Assembly (NCBI GenBank): GCA_022446905.1
Contig: JAKVBT010000010.1
Coordinates: forward strand, 62,001 to 126,000
Reading direction: 5' to 3'
DNA: 64,000 bases
From: Phycisphaerales bacterium
GTDB taxonomy: Bacteria; Planctomycetota; Phycisphaerae; Phycisphaerales; SM1A02
The notes below the pieces were generated by a model, which did not search any database, was not told where the DNA came from, and was given only the letters and a program-made list of their open reading frames with translations. The number at the start of each line of letters is the position of its first letter. Within the stretch, counting starts at the first letter, position 1. A program made the position numbers and the translations under genes. This document shows, piece after piece, positions 14,204 through 31,810 of the stretch.

Positions 14204-14317
14204 CGCTATCGGTCCATCTGTGCTTTGGAATCAAGACAAGGCTGATTCAGCACCTTGCCGGTGCCGGCTGCGGGGGGCTACCCTCCCTCGATGCACGATT
14301 GGACAAGGATGGCTGGG

Positions 14318-16654
14318 ATGAGCAGCCTGGCGATCGTGGTAGGAAGCGGAGTGAACATGGCTGACCAAACTTCGCGGGAAGCTCAAAGGCATCGAGCGAC
14401 ACCCAATCGTTTGGCCAATGAAACCAGCCCCTACCTCCTGCAACATCAGTGGAACCCAGTGGATTGGTATCCCTGGGGCGAGGAAGCATTTGAGGCTGCC
14501 AGAACACAGGACAAGCCCATCTTCCTCAGCGTGGGGTACTCGACCTGTTACTGGTGTCATGTCATGGAACGAGAGTCCTTTGAGGACCCGGCGGTCGCAG
14601 AAGTGCTGAATGCCTATTTCATTCCCGTCAAAGTAGATCGTGAAGAACGCCCCGATGTTGACGATGTCTATATGACCGCAGTTCAGATCATGACTGGGCA
14701 AGGTGGATGGCCGATGTCTGTGTGGCTGCACCCAGATAGCCTCAAGCCATTCTTTGGCGGCACCTACTTCCCGCCAGACGACTATGGACAACGACCAGGT
14801 TTCACCTCTGTCTTAAAGGGGTTGCACTCGGCTTGGATGCAGCGTCGCGATGAAGTTGCGCTGGCATCAGAGCGACTCGGAGAACAAGTCCAAAAACAGA
14901 TGGCGGCTCAGCCACAGTTTGTGCCGCTGCAGGCGGGCATTGTGGATACGGCAGTTTCGCAAGTGCAGGCGTCGTATGACCCAACCCACGGTGGGTATGG
15001 AACCGCTCCGAAATTCCCCATGCCCGTTCATCTTGACATGTTGCTTGAGGCCGGCTGGGATCGTGCTGAGATTCGGGAGTCGATGAAACACACCCTTGAT
15101 CGCATGGCGATTGGTGGGATGTACGATCAGATTGCAGGCGGCTTTCACCGCTACAGCACTGATGAAAAATGGCTCGTGCCACACTTTGAGAAAATGTTGT
15201 ATGACAACGGCATGCTTGCTTCGGTGTATGCCGAGTCAGCAGACCGGACTGGGGATGCATTCCATGCGGCCATTGCTGCGGACATACTGGACTATGTGTT
15301 GGCCGAAATGGTTGATGACTCAGGAGCATTCTGGTCGGCGCAGGATGCAGAGTCCAATGCCCGAGAAGGCGAGTCCTACCTGTGGGTTCCCGAGCAGGTA
15401 CAGGAGGCTCTGGAGGCCAAGGGACTTGAAACGGAAGTTGAACTCGCTCTGCGTGCCTATGGTCTGGACGGGGGCACCAACTTCCGTGATCCTCACCATC
15501 CAGATGCTGCGCCAGCGAATGTGCTGTTCTTGTCTGGACGTCCAGAGGTCATAGCCGCCGAAGCAAACATGGATAGTGTTGAGTTTCAACAGCGCATCAA
15601 GGCAATCAACAAGGCCCTCAAGGCTGTGCGTGATCAGCGGGACCAACCTGCAACGGATGACAAAATTCTCGCGGGTTGGAACGGACTCATGATCGGTGGC
15701 ATGGCCGATGTTGGGCGTTTGCAGGACAAGCAGCGCTTTTTGGACGCAGCCCGCCGGGCAGTAGACGCGATTGCTCAGACGATGTGGTCAGAATCAACCG
15801 GACTTCGTCGCACCGCACGTGCAGGGCGTGTCTCGACCATTGACGCATTCCTAGAAGATTATGCATTTCTCATTCGAGGGGTGCTGCGGTTGTACCGAGC
15901 AACTGGTGATTCTCAGGATCTTGCATGGGCCATCGATCTGATGGACCAGGCGCGGACGCGGTTCTGGGACGAACAACATGGGTGGTATGACGCGCCAGCC
16001 AATGCCCCGGATCTCTTTGTTCGTGGACGATCGCTGTATGACGGTGCCATCCCATGTGGCACGTCGGTCATGCTGGACAATCAGCGATGGCTCTTTGAAT
16101 TGACTGGCGAATCACGGTGGTTGGATGAAGCTGAAGAGACGCTAAGGCCGATTGCATGGACACTCAATCAAGCGCCTCGAGGTTCAGGGCAGGCGATTGC
16201 GACCCTTGCCCAACTTCAACGGGTGGCGCCGGAGCGGTTTGGAGGTGTTGAGCAGGCTGCGGAGCAGGGGCCAGTCTCCGTTTCTGCTGCTGCTGAGCAT
16301 TCTGCACAGGGTATGTCTGTGGTGTTGACCTTTGATATTGCGCCGCCATGGCATGTGGTTTTGCCTGGCCAAGGAAGTGATGAATTGCTGCCCATGCGTA
16401 TCGAGTCACTCACGCCAGAGGTGCATGCAAGCGTGCATTGGCCTGAAGGGACACGCTTCGAATTTCCGACGGGAACTTTTGTCGGCTTGAAAGACCGGGC
16501 AACTATTCAAGTTCACTTGACGTGGATCGCAGAGGTCAATCCTTCATCTGTTGATCTCTCGATCACATGGCAGGCCTGTAATGACAGTGTGTGCCGGCAG
16601 CCTGAGACGCGACGAATGCGGCTGATCATTCCTGAGGAATCTGTTCATGACTGA
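14318..16654 (+). CDS. DUF255 thioredoxin-domain protein (YyaL/SSP411 type) with a C-terminal DsbD-alpha-like domain
   Basis: '[68 protein letters not shown]' is diagnostic. C-terminal '[15 protein letters not shown]...[21 protein letters not shown]' resembles the DsbD N-terminal domain. Start uncertain (14318 or 14357). Confidence 0.92.
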
Positions 16655-17180
16655 CCGAGTGTTGGACATCGCATTGTTGTCCACTGGTGGCACCATCGAA
16701 AAAACGTATGACCCATTGCATGGTGTGCTCTCCAATGAGGTCAGCGTTCTGGAAGTTCTCCTTGCTGGTTTGGAACTCGAGGGGGTTTCTCTCAGGCATG
16801 TCGAGTTGATGAAAAAAGACAGTCTGGATATGACAGATAAGGACCACGGCGTCATTGCAGCCACGGCGCTGGCAGAAGCCTCCACAAGCGACGGGGTCAT
16901 CGTGGTGCACGGCACAGATCGTCTGGCCAACACCGGGGATGCCATCTATGACGCTTGTGGGGGGGCTCCACCTGTGCCCATCGTGCTGACCGGAGCCATG
17001 CGTCCCTGGATTCTCCGGAACAGCGATGCTCAACAAAATTTGACAGAAGCACTCATCGCAGTGCAGTTACTGGCCCCCGGGGTATTCGTTTGTATGCATA
17101 ATCACGTCCTTGCCTTTCCAGGTGTCGTCAAGGACGTCGCCAACCTTCGCTTTGTCTCAACCCGTTCAGCAGGAGCCTGA
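16647..17180 (+). CDS. single-domain asparaginase-like protein (N-terminal domain only)
   Basis: '[14 protein letters not shown]', '[17 protein letters not shown]', '[24 protein letters not shown]'. 177 aa; the usual C-terminal domain is absent. Confidence 0.88.
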
Positions 17181-17183
17181 CCC

Positions 17184-19190
17184 GTGTCATCCAAGTATCG
17201 AACAGCGCCGCTGGCCACCCCAGGCATGCCTGGTGGCATTCCATACATCATTGGAAATGAGGCTGCGGAGCGGTTCAGCTTCTACGGAATGAAGGGGATT
17301 CTGGTCGTCTTCATGACGAGCTATCTCTATCTGTTGCAGGGCTCGCTCAGCAACGAGCCGATTTCCGATGCCAAGGCGATCGCGTGGTACCACGAATTCA
17401 CCTTCTGGGTCTATCTGACGCCATTGTTCGGTGCCTTGCTCAGTGACATCCTCTTCGGCAAGTACTGGACAATTCTGTCTCTGAGCATTGTCTATTGCCT
17501 TGGTCATGGTGCATTGGCCTTCATGGGAACCAATGAGAGCATCGATCCGGCCTGGATGCTCGGTCTTGGCCTGGGATTGATCGCCGTAGGAGCCGGTGGC
17601 ATCAAGCCGTGTGTGTCGGCCCATGTCGGTGATCAGTTCGGCGAGACGAACAAGGGGCTTGTGACCAAGGTCTTCATGTGGTTCTACTTCTCCATCAATG
17701 TTGGAGCGTTCACATCCACCTTGTTGACTCCTTGGCTGCTGGAGTGGTATGGCCCGCACTGGGCATTCGGTGTTCCCGGTGTGTTGATGCTGTTTGCCAC
17801 GTTCTTCTTCTGGTGCGGTCGAAACAAGTTCATCCATGTGCCGGCCGGTGGCCTGAAGTGGTTCAAGGAAACGTTCAGTTGGGTAGGCATTAGTGCACTT
17901 CTCAAACTGAGCATCATCTACGTGTTCATCGCGGTTTTCTGGGCGCTCTTTGACCAAACCGGTTCGTCCTGGGTTCTTCAGGCGGAAGACATGGAGCGTG
18001 AATGGCTGGGTACGACTTGGCTTCCATCTCAGATTCAGGCGGTGAATCCAATCATGATTCTGGTCCTGATACCCATCTTCTCGATGTTGGTGTATCCCAC
18101 GGTCACTCGGGTATTTCACTTGACGCCGATCCGGAAGATCTCCATCGGTCTTTTCATCATGGTGATCGGCTTCGCGATCATCGCAATCATCCAGCAGTGG
18201 ATTGATGCCGGAGAGAAGCCCAGCATCGGATGGCAGATTCTGGCCTATGCCATCATCACAGCGGCTGAAGTGATGATCTCCATCACATGTCTCGAGTTCT
18301 CCTATACCCAGGCACCACGAACCATGAAGTCGATCGTCATGGCGTTCTTCATGTGCAGTGTTGCCGCTGGAAACCTCTTCGTGGCAACGGTGGCTCAGTT
18401 CATTCAGGTTGATACGCTCGGCGATGCGCCCAAGATGCTCGCCAAGAGCTATTCGGCATCAGAGGCCCAGGCGGATGGATCCAAAGATCCAACGGTAACG
18501 GAAGCGACACGTCAAGCTCAGGCATCGGAGCAGGGCTATGCGTATGAAGGCTTCCCGAATGACCATTTCGCGCTGGTACTGCCTGGCTTCGATGGCTCGC
18601 TTGGTTCTGCGGACGATGTAAAGATGGGCTTCTCACCTGAAGGTGCCATGACCGGATTCATCAGTGGTGAAGATGAGATCATTAGAGAAGGCATCGATGA
18701 GATCGGACGATATTGGCTGGCCAATGGTCGTCTTCCTTCTACGGAGGACGGTGAAAAGCTGGTGGCGAATCTGAAGGATCAATGGGGACAGCCCTTGAGT
18801 TATCTGTATCAGAACAGGGTCCAATTCACCGTGTCGAGCAGTGGTCCCGACAAGGCATGGCTCAGCGAACTGGATATCCGAGCGGAAGTCAGTGTCAAGG
18901 AGTCGGCCGCCGAGTCTGACGAGGACAAGACCAGGCCATTAACATGGCTTGAGAATCGTAAGCGTGAGATCAGTCTCTCGGAACAGACGAAGGCTGCCAG
19001 TTGGAGGCCTGACCCCGGGAATGTCGAAGGCTTCGGCCGAACCGTCAAATGGGATATCGGCGGAGGACTCAAGCTCTCAGGTGCTTCCTACTTCTGGTTC
19101 TACACGTGGCTCATGCTTGGCACCGCCATTCTGTTCGTGCCAGTGGTGCTTCTCTACAAGCCACGTACCTACCTGCAGCAAGAAGATTGA
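17184..19190 (+). CDS. POT/PTR2-family peptide MFS transporter with a ~220-aa insertion before the last TM
   Basis: 'NEAAERFSFYGMKGILVVFMTSYLY', 'GAGGIKPCVSAHVGDQF', 'FYFSINVGAFTSTLLTPWLL'. Long hydrophilic insertion ~18405-19080 before the final TM 'FWFYTWLMLGTAILFVPVVLL'. Confidence 0.93.
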   Translation: MSSKYRTAPLATPGMPGGIPYIIGNEAAERFSFYGMKGILVVFMTSYLYLLQGSLSNEPISDAKAIAWYHEFTFWVYLTPLFGALLSDILFGKYWTILSLSIVYCLGHGALAFMGTNESIDPAWMLGLGLGLIAVGAGGIKPCVSAHVGDQFGETNKGLVTKVFMWFYFSINVGAFTSTLLTPWLLEWYGPHWAFGVPGVLMLFATFFFWCGRNKFIHVPAGGLKWFKETFSWVGISALLKLSIIYVFIAVFWALFDQTGSSWVLQAEDMEREWLGTTWLPSQIQAVNPIMILVLIPIFSMLVYPTVTRVFHLTPIRKISIGLFIMVIGFAIIAIIQQWIDAGEKPSIGWQILAYAIITAAEVMISITCLEFSYTQAPRTMKSIVMAFFMCSVAAGNLFVATVAQFIQVDTLGDAPKMLAKSYSASEAQADGSKDPTVTEATRQAQASEQGYAYEGFPNDHFALVLPGFDGSLGSADDVKMGFSPEGAMTGFISGEDEIIREGIDEIGRYWLANGRLPSTEDGEKLVANLKDQWGQPLSYLYQNRVQFTVSSSGPDKAWLSELDIRAEVSVKESAAESDEDKTRPLTWLENRKREISLSEQTKAASWRPDPGNVEGFGRTVKWDIGGGLKLSGASYFWFYTWLMLGTAILFVPVVLLYKPRTYLQQED

Positions 19191-19199
19191 TGCTCTTCG

Positions 19200-20423
19200 C
19201 TACTTGGCTGCAGCGTTCGTTTCAGCAGGATCGGGCTTCGATGGCCTCATACCTCTAATGCGAACCACGTGCTGACCTGGATCCAGTAGTAGAAATGGTC
19301 GCATCGGATCAGTAGTTCGTCGTGCAAAGAGCGGCTGATGATTGATTCGGACGATCATGCGAAGATCGCTTGTGTCTTGCCAGTGCAGCCCTTCCGGCAT
19401 CGTCAGGAGGAAGTTCCCCTGGTGGTCATGCGCAGCAGAGATTGAGCTGTTGGCCAGCAAGAGGGTGCGATAGGAGTTGATGCCAGTGGGCATCCACACA
19501 GCCATGCACTGGTTGGCTGGATCATAGAAGACGATCTCTTCTACAAATGGTGGCGTGAGCCCATGGACATTGCTGCGGTTGGCTGTGGCTCGGAATGGAT
19601 CAAATCTCGTAGCGCCTGCCATGATGCTGATTTGTTTAGCTTCACCAGCGAGTGTGGTTGGAGATTCTCCATCCATGGCGACTAATTGGAGAAGGCCTGA
19701 GGGATTGAGTCGCCAAACATACAACATGTTTGACCGCTTACTCCACTCAGGCAGCAACCATTCCGATCCACTCGCGGGCACTTTGAACTGGGCACCATTT
19801 GGGAATCTCACAGCAAGATCAAAGGCGTCGCTGCCACTTGGTCTTGTGCACCAAGCGAGTCGCCCAGAGGCTCCCAATGAGGCCAGGGCATTGACTTGAT
19901 TGTCTTTGACAAGCCAATTCAAATCGCCCGTTCGCCAGTCCACTTTGCCAATCCAGCGGGCGCCGCCATTTTGGGGTGCCTCAACTAGAAAGCCCTCATC
20001 ATCGGCGCTGTCGCCAAGCAAGAGTGGGGCGGGGAGTTGCTTGATCGAACGAACGCCAGCCTGACCAGGAAGAATCTCCCAGATCTGTACGGCGGTTGAT
20101 TCTGGAATCCTGGCGCCAGGGAGCGCCAGTCGCGTCGCATTGCTGGGGGCGGCGCCGATGCTTGAAGCAATGAACCGACCATCAGGGCTGATCAGCGGCA
20201 TAATGCTGCTGTCCCACTCGACAGCGCCGATATTCCACGTCTCTCCACGAAAGCTGGCGGCTTCAATCTGATCGCCATGCTGATTGATTGCAGCAATCTG
20301 ATTCAGTTCTCGGACTTGCTGCTCATTTAGCTTTGTGCGTCGAGGCCATTCCGATTTACTACAGCCGATGGAAATCACCACGGCAGTTAAGGTTATTGAT
20401 CCAACACTAGCGAACTTAATCAT
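19200..20423 (-). CDS. hypothetical lipoprotein, last gene of the T2SS operon
   Basis: N-terminus 'MIKFASVGSITLTAVVISIGCSKSEW' has a lipobox-like cysteine; ATGA overlap with gspD. Confidence 0.75.
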   Translation of the reverse strand: MIKFASVGSITLTAVVISIGCSKSEWPRRTKLNEQQVRELNQIAAINQHGDQIEAASFRGETWNIGAVEWDSSIMPLISPDGRFIASSIGAAPSNATRLALPGARIPESTAVQIWEILPGQAGVRSIKQLPAPLLLGDSADDEGFLVEAPQNGGARWIGKVDWRTGDLNWLVKDNQVNALASLGASGRLAWCTRPSGSDAFDLAVRFPNGAQFKVPASGSEWLLPEWSKRSNMLYVWRLNPSGLLQLVAMDGESPTTLAGEAKQISIMAGATRFDPFRATANRSNVHGLTPPFVEEIVFYDPANQCMAVWMPTGINSYRTLLLANSSISAAHDHQGNFLLTMPEGLHWQDTSDLRMIVRINHQPLFARRTTDPMRPFLLLDPGQHVVRIRGMRPSKPDPAETNAAAK

Positions 20424-23365
20424 GGCTTTTCTGGCTGATCTTGTTGCTCATGTGGATCCAACATGATTAATTCTGGCTGGAAGCGATCAATCTCAGTTTG
20501 TACAGGATCGCGATCAGGAAGTGTGACACGGCGAGTTGGAGGCGTGCTCGATTTTCCAGAAAGTCTGCGGTGCACGTTGAGGTCAATGGCCTTTTCGCTC
20601 TCCGCGATTTGATCTGCAAGTGGACGGGCGATGGCATCGAGACGTTCAAGATCTTGAACATTGAAATTTGTGTAATTATCAACGGGGCGGTGAACCACAG
20701 TCGGCGTGATAAAGACAATGAGTTCTGTACGTTCGAGGTCCTCATCGTTGAACTCAAACAAAGCGCCAAGCAGCGGGATATCCGCGAGAAGAGGAATTCG
20801 GTTCCTCGTAATCGACTCGGTTTCCTTCAGCAGGCCACCAAGGACGACGGTTTGGCCATCAAGCAGCACGGTGTGGGTGGTCACTTGTTTGCGACCAAAG
20901 ATGGCTGTGTTTGTGCTTCCAACGGAATAATTCGGATTGACGACGTTGGAGATTTCGACACTGACTGTCAAGTCGACAGCGCCTTCTTCTGTGATTCGTG
21001 GCCGGACATTCAGAAACACACCAATATTTTTGTACTCAATCGTTGTTGACGTATTCAGGCCACCAGAAGCTGCTTCGACAGTGCCAGTCGCAATAGGAAA
21101 CTCTTCGCCAGAGAAGAAGACGGCTTCCTCATTATCTGCGGTAAAGACTCGCGGTTCTTGAATAATGCGTGTATTCGTAATCGTGTTAAGAGCCTCAATG
21201 ATGACATCGACAGAAAAGCCACCCAGATTAAAGGTAGAGGGTCCTTGGTTCTGTGCTCCAAACAAGTTCAACAAGAATTCTTGCGCGGTGAAGGTCACGC
21301 CGACACTACCATTAACAATTGCGCCTTGGTTGGCGGCGCCAGGCCAATTGCCGAATTTCATGCCAAGATTCAGGGCGTCGTCAAGGTCAACTTCAACCAC
21401 GGTTGCAGAGAGCATGACCTGCCGGCGAGGTTGGTCAAATGCTTCGATGAGTTTGCGCATTGATTCTTGGTAAGCCGGTGGCGCGAGAATCGCGAGCGCA
21501 TTCTGACGCACGATCGGCACAATGCGAACTTTTCCAATCAGGGCTGATTCTGGAGCCTGCTCTTGGTCTCCACTGGCATTGCCCCACGGGAACTGCAGAT
21601 CCTGACTGGTTGAGGAGTTGTCTGGGCCAGTGATATTCACGCCGCCACTGTCGCCGCTTGCAGAGAAGCCTTCTGCGGATAACCCCGTATCGGGACGGGG
21701 TAGAGAGGCTCGGCCGCTGCCTGCTTGGGCAAGCAGAATATTGAGTTCTTCCGTCAGCGATACAGCATCTGCATATTTCAGTGGAATGATCTCAGGTAGG
21801 CCTGCATCGGAGGGGGCATCGATGCGTTCGATGATGCTCTCAATAAATGCAAAACTCTGTTCTGTCTTAGAGAGCACCAGAAGGGCATTGCGATCAGGGA
21901 AGGCTTCAATCTGATAGACGCCAGCAATGCCGACGGTGGCGTCTGTGCGTTGACTTTGTTGGTTGCCACCACCACGGTTGGTTCGTGAGCCGGTGTTACT
22001 TGAAGAACTTGTTCCTCCAGCACCAAGCACACTGATCAGCAGGTCCTTGACCTTGATTGGATCGGTGTGGCGAAGCACGAACAGGCGTGATGTGCCTTCA
22101 GGTCGAGGAAGGTCCCACTCAGTTTCAATGAGTATGCCAATGTCATCAATGGTTTCTGCTTCGCCTTGCACAGTGACCGTGTTCTGCTGTTCATTAACGG
22201 TCAGGCGCATTGGAGCCTCAGTAGGCCCTTGGACGTTGGTGTTGTTGGCTGGGGTCGTGCCGCCTCGGTTGGTGCGGTTGTTTCTGGACTGATTGCTTGT
22301 TCCGCCAGTACGGGTCGTTCCAGACTGTTCAAAGAGATCAAGAATGTTGGCCTCAATTTCGCGAGCGTCGGCATAACGCAAGCGGAAGGTCTCAATTCTG
22401 GGTTGCAGCCAGGTTCGATCCAGATCAGTGATGATCGATTCGATCTGTTGACACAGTCCGATGTCGCCAAGCACCATGAGTTGATTTGAAAGTGCGTCTT
22501 CCTTCATCTTGGCCCATTGGTCGGGGAAGAACTCGGAGATGTCATCCTTGATCTGGCCAGCGGCAGCACGCTCGAGTTGAAAGATCTTGAAGACCAAGAC
22601 CCCGCGTTCCTGGCGATCAGCAAGGGACTCACTGGCAGGGATGACTTCGATTTCACCGAGTTGCGTTGTCATTTCATCGAGGGGGCCAATAAAGATCACG
22701 CGTTCACGCTCGATGATGCCGATCTCGTTGAGACGTAAATAGGTCAGGATGAAGTCAAGTGCTTCCTGCCTTGGCATTGGCTGATCAGCAACAATGTTGA
22801 ACTCCTTTCGCGAGGTCGAAGTGTCATTGCCGATTGGCATGACTACTTTGCCTGTTTCCAAGGCGATGAGTTCAATCAGTTCGTCAAGTTTGACATCTTT
22901 GAAGGCCAGAACGACAGGCTCGTCCTTGACCGCGCGTCGGGCATTGGGAACGCCATTGGTGGTCCAGAGGACCGGCGCTGGCTCAGGCATATCTTCTGAG
23001 GTGTCAGACCCTTCATTGCTCTGAGTCACGGGATCGCTGTCCGATGCAGCGGATTCTTCCTCAACTTGATCATCTTCCTGGGCTGCGGGCTCATCAGGCG
23101 AGGGAATTTCAGCTTCTTCAGGTTCAAGCTCGACCGTGGCCGGTTCTGTGGGTTCAGGTTCCACGATTGGCGGCTCGGAGGGCTCAGGGCGACCCTGTTG
23201 GGCGAGCGCCATGTCGGGGGTAGCGAGCAGCACGACAGCTGCCAGTGCGATCACGATCTTGAACATGGGTTTGAAGTACACAGGCCTTCCTTTTGGTTCA
23301 GCTTGGGGTACAACGCGGCTGATCGGTGTGTATTCCGTGCCGGACGGGCGAATTTGCACACTCAT
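20420..23365 (-). CDS. gspD: type II secretion system secretin GspD
   Basis: Repeated N-domain motifs, Asn/Gly/Ser-rich linkers, secretin core 'VMLSATVVEVDLDDALNLGMKFGNW', 'TRIIQEPRVFTADNEEAVFFSGEEFPI', 'VVLGGLLKETESITRNRIPLLADIPLLGALFEF'. The signal peptide probably begins at the internal Met at 23266. Confidence 0.95.
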   Translation of the reverse strand: MSVQIRPSGTEYTPISRVVPQAEPKGRPVYFKPMFKIVIALAAVVLLATPDMALAQQGRPEPSEPPIVEPEPTEPATVELEPEEAEIPSPDEPAAQEDDQVEEESAASDSDPVTQSNEGSDTSEDMPEPAPVLWTTNGVPNARRAVKDEPVVLAFKDVKLDELIELIALETGKVVMPIGNDTSTSRKEFNIVADQPMPRQEALDFILTYLRLNEIGIIERERVIFIGPLDEMTTQLGEIEVIPASESLADRQERGVLVFKIFQLERAAAGQIKDDISEFFPDQWAKMKEDALSNQLMVLGDIGLCQQIESIITDLDRTWLQPRIETFRLRYADAREIEANILDLFEQSGTTRTGGTSNQSRNNRTNRGGTTPANNTNVQGPTEAPMRLTVNEQQNTVTVQGEAETIDDIGILIETEWDLPRPEGTSRLFVLRHTDPIKVKDLLISVLGAGGTSSSSNTGSRTNRGGGNQQSQRTDATVGIAGVYQIEAFPDRNALLVLSKTEQSFAFIESIIERIDAPSDAGLPEIIPLKYADAVSLTEELNILLAQAGSGRASLPRPDTGLSAEGFSASGDSGGVNITGPDNSSTSQDLQFPWGNASGDQEQAPESALIGKVRIVPIVRQNALAILAPPAYQESMRKLIEAFDQPRRQVMLSATVVEVDLDDALNLGMKFGNWPGAANQGAIVNGSVGVTFTAQEFLLNLFGAQNQGPSTFNLGGFSVDVIIEALNTITNTRIIQEPRVFTADNEEAVFFSGEEFPIATGTVEAASGGLNTSTTIEYKNIGVFLNVRPRITEEGAVDLTVSVEISNVVNPNYSVGSTNTAIFGRKQVTTHTVLLDGQTVVLGGLLKETESITRNRIPLLADIPLLGALFEFNDEDLERTELIVFITPTVVHRPVDNYTNFNVQDLERLDAIARPLADQIAESEKAIDLNVHRRLSGKSSTPPTRRVTLPDRDPVQTEIDRFQPELIMLDPHEQQDQPEKP

Positions 23366-24111
23366 GGCTGGGTGCCTTTTGTTGGCCGCCCTTCTGGGGA
23401 GGACTTAATCGGAGATTCAGTAGGCAACGAGAAGACTTCTGCCAGGCCGCTCTCGGAATAGACTTTTCCGGGGGCCTCGAAAAGTTCCACTTCAAACGGT
23501 CCGCCGCCACGCCACATCACGTCGATGTGACTGGGCGGATCAATGGCGATGACCTCAATTTCATCCATTTCTTGCCCCAGTGGGATCACCATGAGACCCT
23601 CATCGGCTCGAAAGATGGCATCAGATCCATAGATGGCGATGAGATCGGGTCCGCCATAGCGACGTGGTCGAGGGTCAGGGGGTGGAGGCGGTGGAGGTGG
23701 TGGCTCGATTTCACAGGTCTCGGCGCTACATTGCGTGTCTTTGCCAATAAACCGACCACCGCGATCGCGGCAGATGTCCCGTTTGAGAATGCGGCACTCA
23801 TCTTCGATACAGCATGCTCCAATTGGTTCTGGCGGCTTGGGGCGTGGAGGAGCGGGAGGTTCGAAGAAGAACGAACGGCCATGGATTCGATTCAGATCCG
23901 TTCGGTGAGCGACATCGTGGGCAGCGACCAAGCGGTCATAGGCCGCGTCATCGAGGTTATCGCCACCCCCGACCACCCGAAGAGAACCAAGCGCTGGCAG
24001 CAGGAGCCAGCAGCCAATCACAAATAACAGGATGCTGGCGGCGAGGCTCACGCCAAGTGGGCCTTGGAGTTGATCACGGTCGATCATCGGCGTCGCCCCT
24101 CGTTGATCCAT
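23362..24111 (-). CDS. T2SS-operon membrane-anchored protein in the GspC/PilP-like position (single TM, Pro-rich linkers, Cys-rich module)
   Basis: N-terminal TM 'LGVSLAASILLFVIGCWLLLPALG', linkers 'PPAPPRPKPPEP' and 'PPPPPPPPPDPRP', 'GACCIEDECRILKRDICRDRGGRFIGKDTQC'; lies between gspD and the gspM-like gene. Confidence 0.7.
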   Translation of the reverse strand: MDQRGATPMIDRDQLQGPLGVSLAASILLFVIGCWLLLPALGSLRVVGGGDNLDDAAYDRLVAAHDVAHRTDLNRIHGRSFFFEPPAPPRPKPPEPIGACCIEDECRILKRDICRDRGGRFIGKDTQCSAETCEIEPPPPPPPPPDPRPRRYGGPDLIAIYGSDAIFRADEGLMVIPLGQEMDEIEVIAIDPPSHIDVMWRGGGPFEVELFEAPGKVYSESGLAEVFSLPTESPIKSSPEGRPTKGTQP

Positions 24112-24665
24112 GCTTCAAGGGTGAGTTCAATATCAAGCGATCGTCCGCCATCTTTCCCGCGCTTTATTCGCGCAGATGTGATGCCTTCCAGATTGGCGGA
24201 GTTTTCCAAGGCACCAATTGCTTCATAGGCCACTTCGTCATCGGCGCTAAAGGTCACGGTCACCTTGATCCGTTCGACGCCTTGTAGCGCTCCGCCGCCC
24301 ACTTTGACCGCACTGGAAGATTCCGTGAGGTTGTACTTCCGGATACCACTGTCGGCCATGATCTTTGTGATGGCCTCGAGCATGTCCTGAGATTCATTGC
24401 TGCGAGACGCCGGCGATGACATCGGTCCGTAGGCAATCACGGCTGCGCGCTGTGCAGTGGCGGTATTGGCTGCTTGATCAATCCGATCTACCTGAGCCAC
24501 AATCTGATTTGCCTCATCGCTCCAGTGAGCCGCAATGGGACTGATCGTAGAGGACCAGATGAGAAACAGCAGCAGGGCAATGCCAATGACGGCCACGAGT
24601 CGAATCGACCGTGACATCTGCATGAACTCAGCACGCACTCGCTCGATGACACGCTCTTGGGTCAT
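24084..24665 (-). CDS. GspM/PilO-like T2SS inner-membrane protein
   Basis: Short cytoplasmic N-terminus, one TM 'LVAVIGIALLLFLIWSSTI', heptad-rich stretch, ferredoxin-like C-terminal pattern; follows the gspL-like gene. Confidence 0.65.
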   Translation of the reverse strand: MTQERVIERVRAEFMQMSRSIRLVAVIGIALLLFLIWSSTISPIAAHWSDEANQIVAQVDRIDQAANTATAQRAAVIAYGPMSSPASRSNESQDMLEAITKIMADSGIRKYNLTESSSAVKVGGGALQGVERIKVTVTFSADDEVAYEAIGALENSANLEGITSARIKRGKDGGRSLDIELTLEAWINEGRRR

Positions 24666-26665
24666 GGCTCGTCCTCTCTAGGGAGCGATCGCAAGTGCGT
24701 GAAGAGTCTTCGGAAGTAGTCTTTCAAGGCCGCATCAGTTTCAGGGTCGAGGTTCCTCGATCGCGCTGCTGAGACGCTATTGATCTTTGCTTTGGTTTCC
24801 GCTCGTGTCAGGGTGGCGATCTGTTCGTCCGTCAGAATCTCAGGGACAGCACCCATGTCACCTGCTGAAAGGTCGCCTGAAAGCACATTGCTATCACTGA
24901 CGCTCAACGATCCAGTGTCGCTAGCGGTTGAACTACCCCCAAGGCTTGAACCCCCACTAAACACACTGACGCCATTGGACGGCTTCCCGCCACCTGAAGA
25001 CGGACCTGTAGCAATGCTGGGCGTTGTGATTGGTGTTGTGGGCGCTGCTGGCAGTGATGGGCGAGTGGTAGCGGGTCTAGGTGATGAACTACTGCTGCCA
25101 GAATCGTTTGCACTTGGTGCGGAGGCTGTTGTGGTTGCGGGGGGCTTCGCGGAGGCGGCAGCCTCATCTGGGTGCACCGGGACCCATTTTGCAGCCAAGC
25201 TTGGTCGAGGATCAGGGCCACCATCGGAGGTCTTGGGGAGTTTGTGTCTTCGCTGTTGCAAAGTCCACGCTGCAAAGTCCTGATCTTCTGAGTAGCGGGG
25301 CCGATAGGTCGGCCGTGACACCGAAGCCGACATGGTGAACTCGCGTTCGCCGAGATTCGATCTCGCGCCCCATTCGACACTGACATCACGGAAGACGCCT
25401 GAGACCTGCATGAGGTCCTTCATGTTCGCAATGAGGTCAGCTGCGGATTGGCCATCAAAAGCAGTCGCAGAACCGCCGACCCGCACCGGTTCGCCACTTG
25501 CCATTCGGATGCTGTCAAGTTTGACGCCAAGGGGTGTGGCAGCAGCAATATCTGAGATCAGTTTCGTCACGGGGATCGAACTGGATGAGAGCTGACCATA
25601 AAGTTGCTGGCGCTGCTCCACCATCGCTGCTTGGTCGACCACAGTGTTGAGGTCGCCGGTTGTGATTCGGAGAATCGCCAGTTGGAGGCCGCTGATAATG
25701 ATGGGGCCAAGAATGACGACTACGATTAGTGCGGCGACAAGCCCAATAGCAGTTCGCCTTTCTGACAGATGGTCAATTGCCTGTTCAGTTCTGGTTGGTG
25801 TGATTTCTGGAAGTGAAGGTCGAAGGGCTGAGGCTGTTGCGAGTTCTCCGGTGGCTGCCAATGCGCATCCAAGTGCAATTCCAAAGTGACGCCACTCGAG
25901 TTGGGCTGCTTGCGGACAGCGTTGCTTGAGGTTCTGTTGCACGCTCTCTGGGAGGGCCAGTCCAATATCTGCAGACTGGTTCAATTCCAAGCCATCTCCT
26001 AATGACCTTGATTCATCAGGCGACCAGCCTGCTTGTAGTGCAGACTCAAGAACAAAGCGACGGATGCTTGCTTCATCACCAGAATCAAGGCGGGTGGTTC
26101 GCGCTGTTGCTCTGCCAAGGCCAGCGAGCACCAATGCAGCGCTTCCCTCATTGCGGTCATGCCAGATCAGTGGGAGGTCCGGCCGTGCATCGCCAAGCAG
26201 GGCAAGCAGCCCAATGACGTCGGGGATCGCCAGCAAGTCTTGTGACTCCGCCATCGGGAGTTGAATAGATCGTTCTAGAGGCCATGCGACGGCGACTCCA
26301 AACTGCTGGTCATCATTCTTCCCAGGTTGCATGGCTACAGCGATTCGGTGCAAGGGGACCGAGTCGTCAAATGCCTCGTGGGCTTCTTGGGCAAGTTGAT
26401 GTTCAAGTGTCGCGGGGTCGCCATGCCCGAGCATGATGGTACGTGTCAGTGTGGCTTCTGCAGGCACCACAATGCGGACCGTATTGGGGGCAGCGGCAGC
26501 ACAGATCTCCCGAGCGGTTTGCGGGTCAAGCGAGTCCGCCTCCAGAATCTCAATGCCCTGGGCGGCTCTTCTAAAGTGCAGGCGACGCCAAGCCCCATCT
26601 GTCCAGTGCAGGATGGTCAGGGCGTCGCTGGGGGTCGCAGCGGGGTCAGAACTGTGCCGGCTCAT
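24662..26665 (-). CDS. GspL-like protein (actin-like N-terminal half + TM + PilN-like half + Ser/Thr/Pro-rich tail)
   Basis: 'RTAIGLVAALIVVVILGPIIISGLQLAILR' TM followed by PilN-like 'MVEQRQQLYGQLSSSSIPVTKLISDIAAATPLGVKLDSIRM'; operon position between gspK and the gspM-like gene. Confidence 0.65.
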   Translation of the reverse strand: MSRHSSDPAATPSDALTILHWTDGAWRRLHFRRAAQGIEILEADSLDPQTAREICAAAAPNTVRIVVPAEATLTRTIMLGHGDPATLEHQLAQEAHEAFDDSVPLHRIAVAMQPGKNDDQQFGVAVAWPLERSIQLPMAESQDLLAIPDVIGLLALLGDARPDLPLIWHDRNEGSAALVLAGLGRATARTTRLDSGDEASIRRFVLESALQAGWSPDESRSLGDGLELNQSADIGLALPESVQQNLKQRCPQAAQLEWRHFGIALGCALAATGELATASALRPSLPEITPTRTEQAIDHLSERRTAIGLVAALIVVVILGPIIISGLQLAILRITTGDLNTVVDQAAMVEQRQQLYGQLSSSSIPVTKLISDIAAATPLGVKLDSIRMASGEPVRVGGSATAFDGQSAADLIANMKDLMQVSGVFRDVSVEWGARSNLGEREFTMSASVSRPTYRPRYSEDQDFAAWTLQQRRHKLPKTSDGGPDPRPSLAAKWVPVHPDEAAASAKPPATTTASAPSANDSGSSSSSPRPATTRPSLPAAPTTPITTPSIATGPSSGGGKPSNGVSVFSGGSSLGGSSTASDTGSLSVSDSNVLSGDLSAGDMGAVPEILTDEQIATLTRAETKAKINSVSAARSRNLDPETDAALKDYFRRLFTHLRSLPREDEP

Positions 26666-26745
26666 TGGTGCTGGAGGATATCCGAAACGGGCTTTTTGAC
26701 ACGATCAGGGGAGGGGACCGCCCCCACCTCAGGGTTTGCCAGAAC

Positions 26746-28071
26746 TCAGTCCTCGCGGTATTCCAGAATCCTGATCGGCAGAGTGGAACGATCAACCACA
26801 AGGTTGATTTCACGGGACTCGCCAGTTGCTTCACTATGGCCTCGGCTGGAGATGGAGTAGACGTTGCTGTGGGTGCTGAACATCTGCAGTAACTGCTGCA
26901 TGGCGGAGGCATCCATGCCAGGGAGGTCCCAGAGGTCCACGGGGCTCACCAGCCCCCCGGCCCGCCCGGCCCGGAGGGCCAGCAGGCTGTCAACCATGCG
27001 TTCGCTGCCAACAAACATCTCGTAGAGGGTGGCCGCAGGAACCGTATTGAGGTTCATTCTGCCCCAATCCGATCGGTGTCCCGGTCGCATCGTCGTCTCA
27101 GACAGGATGATGGCCACTTCATCAGGGCTAAAGGTGATCTCTTGAGAATCGTCGTCGGTCTGGCCATTGGCTGTGGACGTTTCGCCGAGGCTGGAGGCCA
27201 GAGTCAGTGGGTCAAATCCCTCTGTGGCTCCTTGGGACACAAGCCAGAGGGCTTTCTCTTCGGGAAGTTGTAGGCCGAAATGATCAAATCGCTCTATGAG
27301 TTCAGCGGTATCAGTGGCCATCAGCCAGATGCGGGGCATGCCACTGAGGGTGGCGCCATCCAGGCGTGATCGGACGGTCAGCCGGCCGGACCATCCAGCA
27401 TCAAGGCTGCCGGACTGATCATCCCAGGGCAAGACCTCATCGCCATCATCTTCTTCTGCATCCAGTCTGGCGTTCAGATTGAAGTCCTCCCCTCGAATGT
27501 CATCGGGCTCAATCCCTGCAACCAGCTCAAGTTCGGCCACACTCTGCATGGGGCCGTTGCGTGGTTCATATCGCGCATCGAGTGACAGGTAGTACTCACG
27601 CTCAACGCCAAATTCACTGGGCTCATCATCTTCATCAATCCAATCCTCAATGGCGGCGAATACGCCCCACGCCAGTGGGCCAAACATAATGTCGATGTAG
27701 CCACGTTGGGGACCGTTGACGTTGAGCTTGGAGTGTTCATCCATCGGACCTGCAAACGGACGAGTGGCGTCGCCGGCTCGATGCTGAATGATCCAGTCGC
27801 CTCCTGGAACTTCGCCAAAGTGCACTGCCTCCAAGTCTGCGGACAATGCCAACGCATCCCCTGGCACAGGATTGGCGGTGTGATAAGCGAGCCGAGCGAT
27901 GGTGGCTTCCGCACCTGCTCGAGCAGCCCACCTCGCGCGAATGCGCTCATGCGTATCTCGACCGATCGTTGCCATGCGCATGGTCCACACCTGCATGGTC
28001 GACACCAGCAGTGCGGTGATGACCAACCCCCACAACACGGCAACGATTGCTGTTCCATGACGCTGGCTCAT
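26746..28071 (-). CDS. gspK: T2SS minor pseudopilin GspK-like
   Basis: 'GTAIVAVLWGLVITALLVSTMQVWTM' N-terminal helix, 'DEHSKLNVN', 'NLNTVPAATLYEMF' (helix-hairpin-helix-like), size 441 aa. Confidence 0.85.
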   Translation of the reverse strand: MSQRHGTAIVAVLWGLVITALLVSTMQVWTMRMATIGRDTHERIRARWAARAGAEATIARLAYHTANPVPGDALALSADLEAVHFGEVPGGDWIIQHRAGDATRPFAGPMDEHSKLNVNGPQRGYIDIMFGPLAWGVFAAIEDWIDEDDEPSEFGVEREYYLSLDARYEPRNGPMQSVAELELVAGIEPDDIRGEDFNLNARLDAEEDDGDEVLPWDDQSGSLDAGWSGRLTVRSRLDGATLSGMPRIWLMATDTAELIERFDHFGLQLPEEKALWLVSQGATEGFDPLTLASSLGETSTANGQTDDDSQEITFSPDEVAIILSETTMRPGHRSDWGRMNLNTVPAATLYEMFVGSERMVDSLLALRAGRAGGLVSPVDLWDLPGMDASAMQQLLQMFSTHSNVYSISSRGHSEATGESREINLVVDRSTLPIRILEYRED

Positions 28072-29024
28072 CGGGGTCCACCTTGGCCGCTTCCGCCCTG
28101 AAGTGTGGCGCTGCTGCCATCATTGCTGATGATGACTTGGCCCTCTGGGGTATCGATGACCATGCCACCTTGGCCCGAACTGCCTGCCTGCCCTGGCCCT
28201 CCTGTCAGGCTGCCGTCTCCAGCAGTCTCACGCTCCATCGGTGGAGGAGAGGCTGCGGCGACCGCTGCGATGAAGGCATCCTCTTGATCACTATCAACGC
28301 CAAATCGCTCCATCAGTTCCCATGCCATTTTGGAGTCAGCGACGTCGATAGGCATGGTGCTTCGGTCTAGCGGCACGACTGTGCGCAAAGTAGCGACGGG
28401 GTGATCGGCGGTTGACTCGCCTGGTGGCGCTCCTGTGGCTTCGACAGTCACACGCAGTGCCCAAGGGAGTCCATCGCGGTCGCTATCCCACTGTGTATGC
28501 CAGACACGACCATCCCACGCTTCGATGGACATTCCGATGATGCCTTCAGCAGCCGGCATCACCAATCCACCGCCGCGGGGGTAGGCATCGGGCATGGCAT
28601 CACGCCGCTGAAGCAGCACCGAACCGAGATCGTCATCCTCAATTCGGTATTGAGTCTCGAATTCGAGTCCATCGCCGTTGTATTCGATATCTCGTGTTGC
28701 TTGCAGGCGATTATTGAAGACCAGTATGTCGTCACGGTCGACGGGAGAACCATCGAGTGTTGTTGAGCGGTCTTCGACCAGGACTCTCGTGTAATAGAGA
28801 TCTGTGCGCCGTAGTACAGACACGAGATCTCGTCGCAGGATGCTCAGGGCGGCATCTGCTCTGAGGTGTGCTTCAATGCGGCCACGTACGGCATTTCGAC
28901 TCTTGACGATCTGTTGCATCGCCAGACCCATGGCTGCAAGCAAAAGTGCCATCAGTACTGCAGCCAAGATCAGTTCGATCATGGTGAAGCCGCGGCGTCG
29001 AGTTCGGCGTGCGTTGCGGTTCAC
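28068..29024 (-). CDS. T2SS pseudopilin GspJ-like
   Basis: Prepilin signal 'RRRGFTMIELILAAVLMALLLAAMGLAMQQIV'. Confidence 0.8.
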   Translation of the reverse strand: MNRNARRTRRRGFTMIELILAAVLMALLLAAMGLAMQQIVKSRNAVRGRIEAHLRADAALSILRRDLVSVLRRTDLYYTRVLVEDRSTTLDGSPVDRDDILVFNNRLQATRDIEYNGDGLEFETQYRIEDDDLGSVLLQRRDAMPDAYPRGGGLVMPAAEGIIGMSIEAWDGRVWHTQWDSDRDGLPWALRVTVEATGAPPGESTADHPVATLRTVVPLDRSTMPIDVADSKMAWELMERFGVDSDQEDAFIAAVAAASPPPMERETAGDGSLTGGPGQAGSSGQGGMVIDTPEGQVIISNDGSSATLQGGSGQGGPR

Positions 29025-29512
29025 TCGCTAACACTCCCCTCGGGGCTAGATTCTTCGTCCCAGGTTCGCGCTTCTCGATCAAGTTCTTCCAGTGGTCGCC
29101 AGTCAAGTGGGTCGTCAGGGTCACCTTGGCGTGGGGCTATGAGGGTGTCCACTTCAACGCTGTTGAGGCCGCGCCGGTCTTGCCAACTCACAACCGCTTT
29201 GACATTCCAAGCTTCCCACTCATTGGTCTTGCGAATTTCCACTGCCCACTGATACTGATCGAAGGGGACCTCATAGGTGCCCTCGGTTGGCTCAGAGACT
29301 TGATATTCGCGTGGTCCGGTCGCTAATACCAAGGCAAGTGTTTCGTCTGCGAGCCATGACGCGACGAGTCGACGCTCGCCAGCTTGCTCGGCGAGCAGGC
29401 TCTGGCTGGCAAGCGACATCGTGACGGCCAAGCCGATCGCCAGCATGAGCGCAGCGAGCATCACGTCAAGCAGCGCGACTCCATGTCGAGTGGCTCGGGG
29501 GCGGGACATCAC
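29021..29512 (-). CDS. T2SS pseudopilin GspI-like
   Basis: 'RHGVALLDVMLAALMLAIGLAVTMSLASQSLLAEQAGERRLVASWLADETLA'; operon position. Confidence 0.75.
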   Translation of the reverse strand: MMSRPRATRHGVALLDVMLAALMLAIGLAVTMSLASQSLLAEQAGERRLVASWLADETLALVLATGPREYQVSEPTEGTYEVPFDQYQWAVEIRKTNEWEAWNVKAVVSWQDRRGLNSVEVDTLIAPRQGDPDDPLDWRPLEELDREARTWDEESSPEGSVSE

Positions 29513-30093
29513 CAGTCCTCCTGCCAGCGGCCAGTGTTATCCAGATCTTCGGTGGCCCGGACGGTGTCATTGCGTAGCAGGCCGCCTGATCCACCACTGA
29601 TCGTAGGTCGCCATGCAGTTGGTGCCAAAGTCAGTACCACTTCCTGTGGAAGCCGCGTATCCGTACTGCGAACGGTCACCTGCATGAGGGGTCGTGGCTG
29701 ACCAGGAATGCTGGTCAATGGGCGGTCAGACGGGTCCATTTGATCGCCATCAAGCACAAACTCAAGTGCTGATACATCGACGCTTGCCGGCAGCCTAACC
29801 TCTTGTACAGAAAGATCCGGTACCCATTCAGCGGGCGCAGTTTCATCAGTGCGCCGGCGAAGCATCAAGCGCAGACTGTTCCGGTCTGGATTGCTGCTGA
29901 TGCCCACGGGGTCTTCGGCAAACTCACTGCGGACCGCATACATAAGCAGGAGATCGCCAATCTCTTCCACGGCCAGTTCAAACCGTCGGCCTTCCGTTCC
30001 AGAAAAACGAACCAGCACCACCGTCGCGAGCAACGCCATCATGACGGTGACGAGGATGACTTCAATCAGGGTGAAAGCGCGCCGCTGAGGCAT
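29509..30093 (-). CDS. T2SS pseudopilin GspH-like
   Basis: Prepilin signal 'RRAFTLIEVILVTVMMALLATVVLVRFSG'. Confidence 0.8.
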   Translation of the reverse strand: MPQRRAFTLIEVILVTVMMALLATVVLVRFSGTEGRRFELAVEEIGDLLLMYAVRSEFAEDPVGISSNPDRNSLRLMLRRRTDETAPAEWVPDLSVQEVRLPASVDVSALEFVLDGDQMDPSDRPLTSIPGQPRPLMQVTVRSTDTRLPQEVVLTLAPTAWRPTISGGSGGLLRNDTVRATEDLDNTGRWQEDW

Positions 30094-30099
30094 TGCAAT

Positions 30100-30567
30100 C
30101 TACTGCGTGAGATCCGCGTTGATGCCCTCGCCTCCAGCAGCTCGGTCGGCACCGTAGGAGACAATGTCAAAGTCGGCATTGACAACGCCTGGAACCTCCA
30201 CGAAGAAGGGCTCCTTCCACGGGTCAATGACGTCAGAGGCTTTGGACAGGTACGGCCCTTGAGGGCCGCCACCATTGTCCGGGCGTTTGGTCAGGAGCTC
30301 AAGGTTGAATCCCGGCTCGGGCAGTGGTTGTCCGACATCAATCAGGTAGAGCGTCAGCGCCTGGCTAATTTTGGAGGCCTGCGTTTTTGCGATTTCAGCT
30401 TGGCCGCGACCGAACATGCCACTCATCCGGGTGACTAGGACCGCCATAAGCAGCGCGATCACGGTCACCATCACAATGACTTCGACGAGCGTAAAAGCGC
30501 GTCGGGCGTGTCGGAGGTTGCGGCGTCGAGTGGTGTGCATTTGAAAACTCCTGGAATCAGTGATCAT
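30100..30567 (-). CDS. gspG: T2SS major pseudopilin GspG
   Basis: 'RRAFTLVEVIVMVTVIALLMAVLVTRMSG' and C-terminal 'DPWKEPFFVEVPG...DFDIVSYGADRAAGGEGINADL'. Confidence 0.88.
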   Translation of the reverse strand: MITDSRSFQMHTTRRRNLRHARRAFTLVEVIVMVTVIALLMAVLVTRMSGMFGRGQAEIAKTQASKISQALTLYLIDVGQPLPEPGFNLELLTKRPDNGGGPQGPYLSKASDVIDPWKEPFFVEVPGVVNADFDIVSYGADRAAGGEGINADLTQ

Positions 30568-31808
30568 TAACCTGCGATCTTCTGCAGGTCGAGCAGTGGC
30601 AACAGAATGGCCACCATGACAAAGCCCCCAAGGGCAGCCATGATGACGATAAGAAGTGGGGGAAACGCCTTGGTAAAGACTTTGATACTTGCATTGACCT
30701 GGCGATCAAAGGCCGTGGCGGCATGTCCGAGCATTTCTTCGAGCCGCCCGGATCTTTCGCCGAGGTTGACGACTTGGATCAGAAGTGGCGGAAAAAGGCC
30801 GGAGCGTTCCAGCGGATCGGCTAGTGGTTTGCCTTGGGTGACCTGTGCTTGAACTTCGTCAATTGCGGACATCATCGCTGCATTGGCAAGGGTGTCTCTG
30901 GTAATCCGCAAGCAGTCAAGGAGGGGAAGTCCAGCTGCGGCCAAGGTGCCCATGGTTCGCGTGAACCGGGCAACGGCGACATCACGATTCAGGCGGCCGG
31001 CCAATGGCAGGCGCAACTTCATCGAGTCCCATTTCAGTCGGTTCTCTGGTGCTGCTACCCAGAAACGCCAGCCAGCGACAGCGGCAATGACCGCTGCAAT
31101 CACGGCCAGCCACCAGTTCTTAATGAGATCGGCAATGCCCAGCAGGATTTCCGTAGGCATGGGCAGTTCCGTTACGCCAGCTGCTTGCAAGGGCTCGAGC
31201 AGACTGGGGATCAACACGGTGACCAGCACGGTGGCGCTGAGCACAATCAGTACGAGCACAATCATTGGGTAGAACGCGGCACCGACGATTTCGCGACGCA
31301 GTTCAAGGCTCCGGTCCAGCAATTCAGCGAGCTGATGCAGGACTACGCTTGTTTGTCCTGAAGCATCTGCAGCGCGCAGCATGCCAACGATCAAATCATC
31401 AAACGGGGGCCCGTAGTCTTGCGCTGCCTTGTGCAACTGTTCGCCTGCTTCCACTCGCTCAATGAGATGGTCAAGTACGGATGGGGCACCTTTGCCAGTA
31501 GCCTGCCTGCGAATCGTATGCAGTGCTTGGACCAGGGGAAGTCCGGCTTCAAGCGCAGTAGCTAATTCACGGATCAGTGTTGCGACATCCGCCCGCTTCA
31601 TTGTTGGCCGCGTGCGTCGCTGTCGGACGACTCGACTTGATGCTGTGGGTATGGCCGGGGCGGCCGTCTTTGCGGCGAGCATCAGTGAGGTGGCGGTTTC
31701 GCCGCGCTGCAACAACTGCTGCATCGCATCAGCTCGGCTTGAAGCCTCGATGGATCCACTGCGGGACTTGCCCGTCGGCGTGACGGCCTGGTACTCAAAG
31801 CGCGGCAT
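30567..31808 (-). CDS. gspF: T2SS inner-membrane platform protein GspF
   Basis: 'FEYQAVTPTGKSRSGSIEASSRADAMQQLLQRGE', 'RELATALEAGLPLVQAL', 'VNLGERSGRLEEMLGHAATAFD'. Confidence 0.95.
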   Translation of the reverse strand: MPRFEYQAVTPTGKSRSGSIEASSRADAMQQLLQRGETATSLMLAAKTAAPAIPTASSRVVRQRRTRPTMKRADVATLIRELATALEAGLPLVQALHTIRRQATGKGAPSVLDHLIERVEAGEQLHKAAQDYGPPFDDLIVGMLRAADASGQTSVVLHQLAELLDRSLELRREIVGAAFYPMIVLVLIVLSATVLVTVLIPSLLEPLQAAGVTELPMPTEILLGIADLIKNWWLAVIAAVIAAVAGWRFWVAAPENRLKWDSMKLRLPLAGRLNRDVAVARFTRTMGTLAAAGLPLLDCLRITRDTLANAAMMSAIDEVQAQVTQGKPLADPLERSGLFPPLLIQVVNLGERSGRLEEMLGHAATAFDRQVNASIKVFTKAFPPLLIVIMAALGGFVMVAILLPLLDLQKIAG

Positions 31809-31810
31809 GA

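Follow-up and report, generated by a model that had tools for sequence, protein, structure and literature searches.

A GspG-like periplasmic module with two calcium-type loops in POT peptide transporters of Planctomycetota and Verrucomicrobiota

Why would a bacterial peptide transporter carry part of a pseudopilin-like protein in the loop between its last two transmembrane (TM) helices? The question is raised by a locus of a Phycisphaerales bacterium, within a 64,000-nt stretch of contig JAKVBT010000010.1 (the window). A preliminary description of this DNA had noted a large hydrophilic stretch interrupting the core of a proton-coupled oligopeptide transporter (POT), had likened it to the C-terminal domain of the pseudopilin GspG and had proposed an unusual fusion that could link peptide uptake to the secretion apparatus. 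Here we show that the protein is a 12-TM POT with a periplasmic TM11–TM12 module resembling the C-terminal domain of GspG, that this module carries two conserved calcium-type loops, and that it occurs across Planctomycetota and Verrucomicrobiota.

An intact POT with a large TM11–TM12 insert

The gene and the main parts of its product lie as follows, in window coordinates.

17184..19190, + strand: POT (PTR2) proton-coupled oligopeptide transporter gene, 668 aa, GTG start (PF00854, E = 3.5e-81)
17238..18401, + strand: TM1–TM11, residues 19–406 (AF2 helices), including the E26-x-x-E29-R30 motif in TM1
18402..19079, + strand: TM11–TM12 periplasmic insert, residues 407–632, made up of the GspG-C-like domain and linkers (AF2, charge rule)
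19080..19154, + strand: TM12, residues 633–657 (AF2)

The gene is one intact frame with zero internal stops, and the frame is intact in dozens of genomes, ruling out an artefact or frame error behind the interrupted POT. The PTR2 match falls in two stretches of the protein and reaches 273.5 bits against a curated cut-off of 27. The nearest solved relatives by sequence are PepTSo, a second bacterial POT and mammalian PepT2/PepT1. An AF2 model of the whole chain, built on 53 sequences (pLDDT 88.4, pTM 0.89), has 12 long helices, the 12-TM MFS fold of solved POTs, and its top PDB folds in Foldseek are PepTSo and PepT2 (4UVM, E = 1.7e-22). The ExxER residues E26, E29 and R30 are invariant in the 53 sequences. 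By every test made, the window protein is a POT and not a pseudopilin, and its core is predicted to import di- and tripeptides coupled to protons.

PepTSo (2XUT/4UVM), the POT of 6EI3 and mammalian PepT2 share with the window protein the 12-TM core and ExxER, at 33–37% identity in fold alignment. Unlike the window protein, the solved bacterial POTs that we found lack a large TM11–TM12 domain; conversely, the residues linking the N and C halves of PepTSo (~207–294 of 2XUT) are missing from the window protein and are skipped in the alignment.

TM11 spans residues 379–406 in the AF2 model, and the interruption that follows has bounds within a few bases of those first proposed. The insert is acidic (38 D/E versus 24 K/R) and has no Cys. 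Loops assigned inside hold 15 K/R and those assigned outside 3, so that by the positive-inside rule the TM11–TM12 loop is periplasmic. The periplasm is the normal location of the GspG domain.

Distant homology of the insert to the C-terminal domain of GspG

Within the insert, six features recur in the comparisons below.

18585..18617, + strand: first calcium-loop motif GFDGSLGSADD, residues 468–478, fitting the loosened PERCAL/pseudopilin pattern G-x-D-G-x(5)-D-D (PMC3396595)
18672..18725, + strand: helix equivalent to GspG alpha1-C, residues 497–514 (AF2), followed by LPSTEDG (compare GspG YPTTEQG)
18732..18875, + strand: GspG-like core LPSTEDG...DQWGQPLSY...FTVSSSGPDKAWLSELD, residues 517–564 (T2SSG 17.1 bits, E = 0.006; hhalign versus GspG 95–96%)
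18843..18875, + strand: second calcium-loop motif GPDKAWLSELD, residues 554–564, the equivalent of the GspG calcium loop
18945..18986, + strand: helix WLENRKREISLSEQ after the domain, led by W588 (W588 in 54/54, R592 in 48/54)
19059..19064, + strand: G626–G627 directly before TM12, invariant (54/54)

The match of the window's own insert to Pfam T2SSG (PF08334) lies under the gathering score of 21. T2SSG matches 31 of 54 homologous inserts (best E = 3e-6), each over only ~28–40 positions, and one insert (L145) stands above the Pfam cut-off at 23.6 bits; no other Pfam family recurs in more than 2 of the 54. When a profile of 12 inserts was searched against the PDB, crystal and NMR structures of GspG came out on top (E = 0.0015–0.01) and the matches were mainly to GspG. 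A PDB search with the single insert sequence returned nothing useful, and an NCBIfam search gave zero matches on the insert.

Profile–profile comparison is sharper. Aligned by hhalign to 12 GspG proteins of the same bacterial family, the 54-insert profile scores 54.4 (95.2%, E = 2.5e-8) over a span of 62–68 columns, which keeps the GspG order of helix end, LPxxxxG, DPWGNPxxY, strand, SxGPD and calcium loop. Sixty column shuffles score at most 17.3, with probabilities of at most 0.92%, and the reversed profile scores 11.9, which argues against a chance or motif-only likeness to GspG. These alignments are strong evidence that the insert and the C-terminal domain of GspG are truly, if distantly, related. 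The earlier assignment of a GspG-C-terminal-like domain to an extramembrane POT loop is thereby upheld, on the periplasmic side, by profile homology together with AF2 and charge-rule topology.

With GspG/PulG the insert shares the sequence of helix, LPxxxxG helix, DPWGNPxxY, strand and SxGPD calcium loop, as well as the ligand aspartates. Unlike them, it is embedded in a transporter, has an extra upstream calcium hairpin and begins after TM11 without a class III signal or hydrophobic alpha1-N; correspondingly, the N_methyl match is absent from the insert and present in the true GspG encoded at 30100–30567 of the window.

Calcium-type loops and predicted fold

In GspG (3G20), the side-chain ligands of calcium are the Asp residues at positions 3 and 11 of G-P-D-G-V-P-N-T-E-D-D (PMC3396595), and calcium is critical for the folding and assembly of pseudopilins (PMC6692295). 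Both loops of the insert conserve these positions. In loop 1, position 3 is D in 50 of 54 inserts, position 11 is D in 49 and position 8 is T/S in 48; in loop 2, each of the three is conserved in 53 of 54, and position 10 is W or L, mostly W, instead of the D of GspG. The window sequence deviates by having S for T at position 8 of motif 1 and by lacking Gly at position 4 and Asp at position 10 of motif 2. Because the ligand aspartates are conserved in both loops, the insert likely holds two calcium sites, which we treat as putative. PERCAL was defined in haem peroxidases; its strict form, G-x-D-G-x-x-[GN]-[TN]-x-D-D, does not fit loop 1 of the window, with its S at position 8, and does fit GHDGITGTHDD of L118 and many other relatives.

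The placement of the loops differs in part from what had been described. Both strings quoted there occur verbatim in the protein, but LPGFDGSLGSADDV, taken to be the C-terminal end of the GspG-like unit, sits before the helix and the DQWG block and forms an additional, first calcium loop; what corresponds to the C-terminal calcium loop of GspG is 'GPDKAWLSELDI' (residues 554–565). On its own, the first half, containing LPGFDGSLGSADDV, aligns to GspG at 63%, and the two halves align to each other at 70% (hhalign), suggesting that they may be a repeat.

An AF2 model of the insert alone (pLDDT 86.9, pTM 0.76; residue 1 is protein residue 405) has strands at 49–52, 58–62, 75–79, 85–89, 135–138, 143–148 and 161–167 and helices at 93–110 and 116–123, and the elements of its second half are ordered as in GspG. 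Foldseek gave zero significant matches to this model. Whether its fold is GspG-like, the point that had been left to structure prediction, is therefore answered only in part: type IV pilins are among the few matches of sizeable probability (PilE, the best pilin, E = 0.53, probability 0.54; PilA4, 0.25; TM-score (target) 0.40), and none is significant. With a strong profile match and a non-significant Foldseek result, the sequence claim is strong and the fold claim weaker.

Distribution and evolution of the insert

Of the 80 top-ranking POT loci in a public genome collection, about 60 carry a GspG-like loop, of 137–240 aa. Carriers belong to Phycisphaerales, Pirellulales/Planctomycetaceae and many Verrucomicrobiales, and some further records bear the labels Neomarinimicrobiota and Bacillota. 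In relatives from Proteobacteria, Myxococcota and Nitrospirota the site holds a loop of 11 aa, and three of the surveyed POTs have other domains there. A sample of 400 genomes from the window's order gave strong matches in 42, all of them in the window's own family (f1). What had looked like an isolated oddity is instead a subfamily spanning Planctomycetota and Verrucomicrobiota.

The insert is under purifying selection, with dN/dS of 0.07–0.29 compared with 0.02–0.08 for the core, or ~1.4–5 times the core value, in a comparison in which some pairs are near synonymous saturation. The same loop in ~60 of 80 POTs, this selection and the T2SSG matches in 31 of 54 inserts together lead us to reject chance.

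On a core-only tree, from a quick search with SH-aLRT and with a very long outgroup branch that makes the root uncertain, the insert trait needs three changes. One carrier, L015, is nested among insert-free POTs, which suggests a second, independent acquisition. L015, L187 and L188 make up a POT group of their own that has a GspG-like loop; in L187 and L188, the second calcium motif alone can be recognised.

The module also occurs outside pilins and transporters

Non-pilin proteins with GspG-like modules, of TraB/GumN type and DUF4190 type, are encoded in genomes of the window's order. They carry the same LP...DxWGNPxxY...SxGPDG..T.DDI module without a pilin N-terminus, and unlike the POT insert they bear it as C-terminal tandem copies or as an insertion in other scaffolds. 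The DUF4190-type membrane proteins have one to three tandem copies; in L184, L185, L186 and L190, two-TM proteins of this type, the modules are C-terminal. In the TraB/GumN-type proteins, namely L178–L182 and one in the window's own genome (L037:1054–2289; G000:C56 near 199257), the GspG-like domain follows an 'LYESVMPAG' segment; T2SSG scores here are 32.2 bits for L178 and 18.6 for L037.

The POT insert is closest to the DUF4190-type modules (hhalign 99.2%, E = 2e-19); the TraB type (95.2%, E = 2.8e-8) is as near as GspG. The module may derive from a free-standing GspG-like lineage, found on other envelope proteins as well and without a role in a pilus. Since pili are not the only setting in which the GspG C-terminal domain is used, T2SSG matches in these phyla are not automatically secretion genes.

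Gene neighbourhood

The POT gene ends 9 bp from a convergent ORF (19200–20423, − strand), behind which lies a type II secretion system (T2SS) cluster.

20420–33469, − strand: T2SS cluster (secretin, GspK, GspG, GspF, GspE), convergent with the POT gene

In 12 genomes, among them that of the window, 11–15 kb separate the POT and GspG genes. Three of the 12 (G017, G020 and G027) are without the TM11–TM12 insert, and L159, another insert-free POT, has the same neighbours. T2SS genes are absent beside the insert POTs of Verrucomicrobia and Pirellulales; those of Verrucomicrobia adjoin FabH-, PlsX-, DXR- and TatD-like ORFs (named from sequence by inspection). Linkage in insert-free POTs and its absence in Verrucomicrobia mean that it belongs to the Phycisphaerales chromosome region and not to the domain. 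Conserved T2SS coupling is rejected on gene neighbourhood, and a conserved link of the insert to the secretion apparatus is not supported: T2SS genes also lie beside insert-free POTs in Phycisphaerales, the Verrucomicrobia neighbours are housekeeping genes, and the insert has no pilin N-terminal helix and has non-pilin nearest relatives. Among families recurring in at least 5 loci, no conserved peptidase neighbour was found.

The convergent ORF has no Pfam match; L098 and L159 retain it. Immediately upstream of the POT gene and in its orientation (window 14255–17180) are two genes, for a DsbH-type thioredoxin protein and for a 177-aa protein with an asparaginase N-terminal domain; the pair ends 3 bp before the POT start, an arrangement kept in L098, and is likely to form an operon with the POT gene.

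What the domain may do

The explanation that we favour, with a probability of roughly 55%, is a POT importer with a calcium-stabilised periplasmic docking or lid domain of a GspG-like lineage that has no pilus role. The POT core would carry out its usual proton-driven import of di- and tripeptides. Stabilised by calcium, the folded loop would pack against the periplasmic face beside TM11/TM12, an arrangement in favour of which we count the whole-chain pTM. Such a domain could be a lid or an extracytoplasmic platform; it might, for instance, hold a periplasmic peptidase, or a component of the wall or surface, close to where peptides enter. The proposal builds on a parallel with mammalian PepT1/PepT2, for whose Ig-like domain a similar role has been suggested; that extracellular domain binds trypsin, and transport persists when it is removed (PMC4597091). 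More tentatively, and at present doubtfully, the pilin-free, putatively calcium-binding GspG module might be a general envelope docking unit in Planctomycetota and Verrucomicrobiota that on POTs brings in a particular periplasmic peptidase or secretion component and so ties peptide uptake to digestion outside the cell.

Other explanations share some of this evidence. A calcium-responsive regulatory lid that opens and shuts the periplasmic entrance would account for the two conserved calcium-type loops, for a pTM of 0.89 that suggests a fixed position over the core, and for the invariant W588 and G626–G627 that join the domain to TM12; it is rather unlikely, the dispensability of the extracellular domain for transport in mammalian PepTs (PMC4597091) counting against it. 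The insert could also be mainly structural, a passive spacer or stabiliser without a partner, since it evolves faster than the core; moreover, the loop is missing from close relatives that presumably still transport. Ligand and core residues that are nearly invariant over two phyla, and a dN/dS well under 1, render this unlikely.

The remaining two alternatives fare worse. PERCAL loops are inserted in unrelated bacterial proteins (PMC3396595), and given the short Pfam coverage and the non-significant Foldseek result, the resemblance might be a convergent PERCAL-like motif in a non-homologous loop. We consider that improbable, as helix, LPxxxxG, DPWGNPxxY, SxGPD strand and calcium loop are all matched in GspG order, the hhalign span is aligned far above shuffled controls, and L145 exceeds the Pfam cut-off. 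The tail-to-tail arrangement with the T2SS cluster, the 11–15-kb spacing in 12 genomes and a PF08334 match in 21 of 22 insert-bearing genomes tested, most in pilin-sized frames, would suit a domain that physically couples the transporter to the T2SS pseudopilus or secretin and thereby lets the cell take up, right where they arise, the peptides that secreted proteases release. Nearly all members of these phyla have a T2SS, however, making GspG co-occurrence uninformative, and the linkage tracks the region as described above. The domain, moreover, has no pilin helix, is tethered to TM helices at both ends and is closest to non-pilin modules; such coupling is very improbable.

Outward-facing domains in other POTs

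Among bacterial and mammalian homologues, a large extracellular domain has been stated for the mammalian ones only (PMC4597091), and in the open-access papers that we searched we found no description of a POT fused to a GspG-like domain. Mammalian PepT1/PepT2, like the window protein, have a ~200-residue extracytoplasmic domain inserted in the POT. Theirs lies between TM9 and TM10 and consists of two Ig-like folds, whereas the window insert lies between TM11 and TM12 and is GspG-like, not Ig-like; the two are analogous, not homologous. Bacterial POTs of at least two phyla have a large conserved extracytoplasmic domain, in another loop and of a fold unrelated to the mammalian one, and the role of such domains becomes testable in a bacterial system. 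Docking by the insert, if true, would be a bacterial parallel, with unrelated fold and loop, of the trypsin docking proposed for mammalian PepT1.

PKD domains at the TM11–TM12 loop and inserts at the TM9–TM10 site suggest that outward-facing domains have been added to POTs several times. The PKD domains, in L163 and L171 and weakly in L160, occupy the site of the GspG-like module elsewhere. Inserts of ~60–260 aa at TM9–TM10, the site of the mammalian Ig-like domain, are found in POTs of the window's family (L021, L025, L022–L024, L026 and L027), and that of L021 is discoidin-like by eye.
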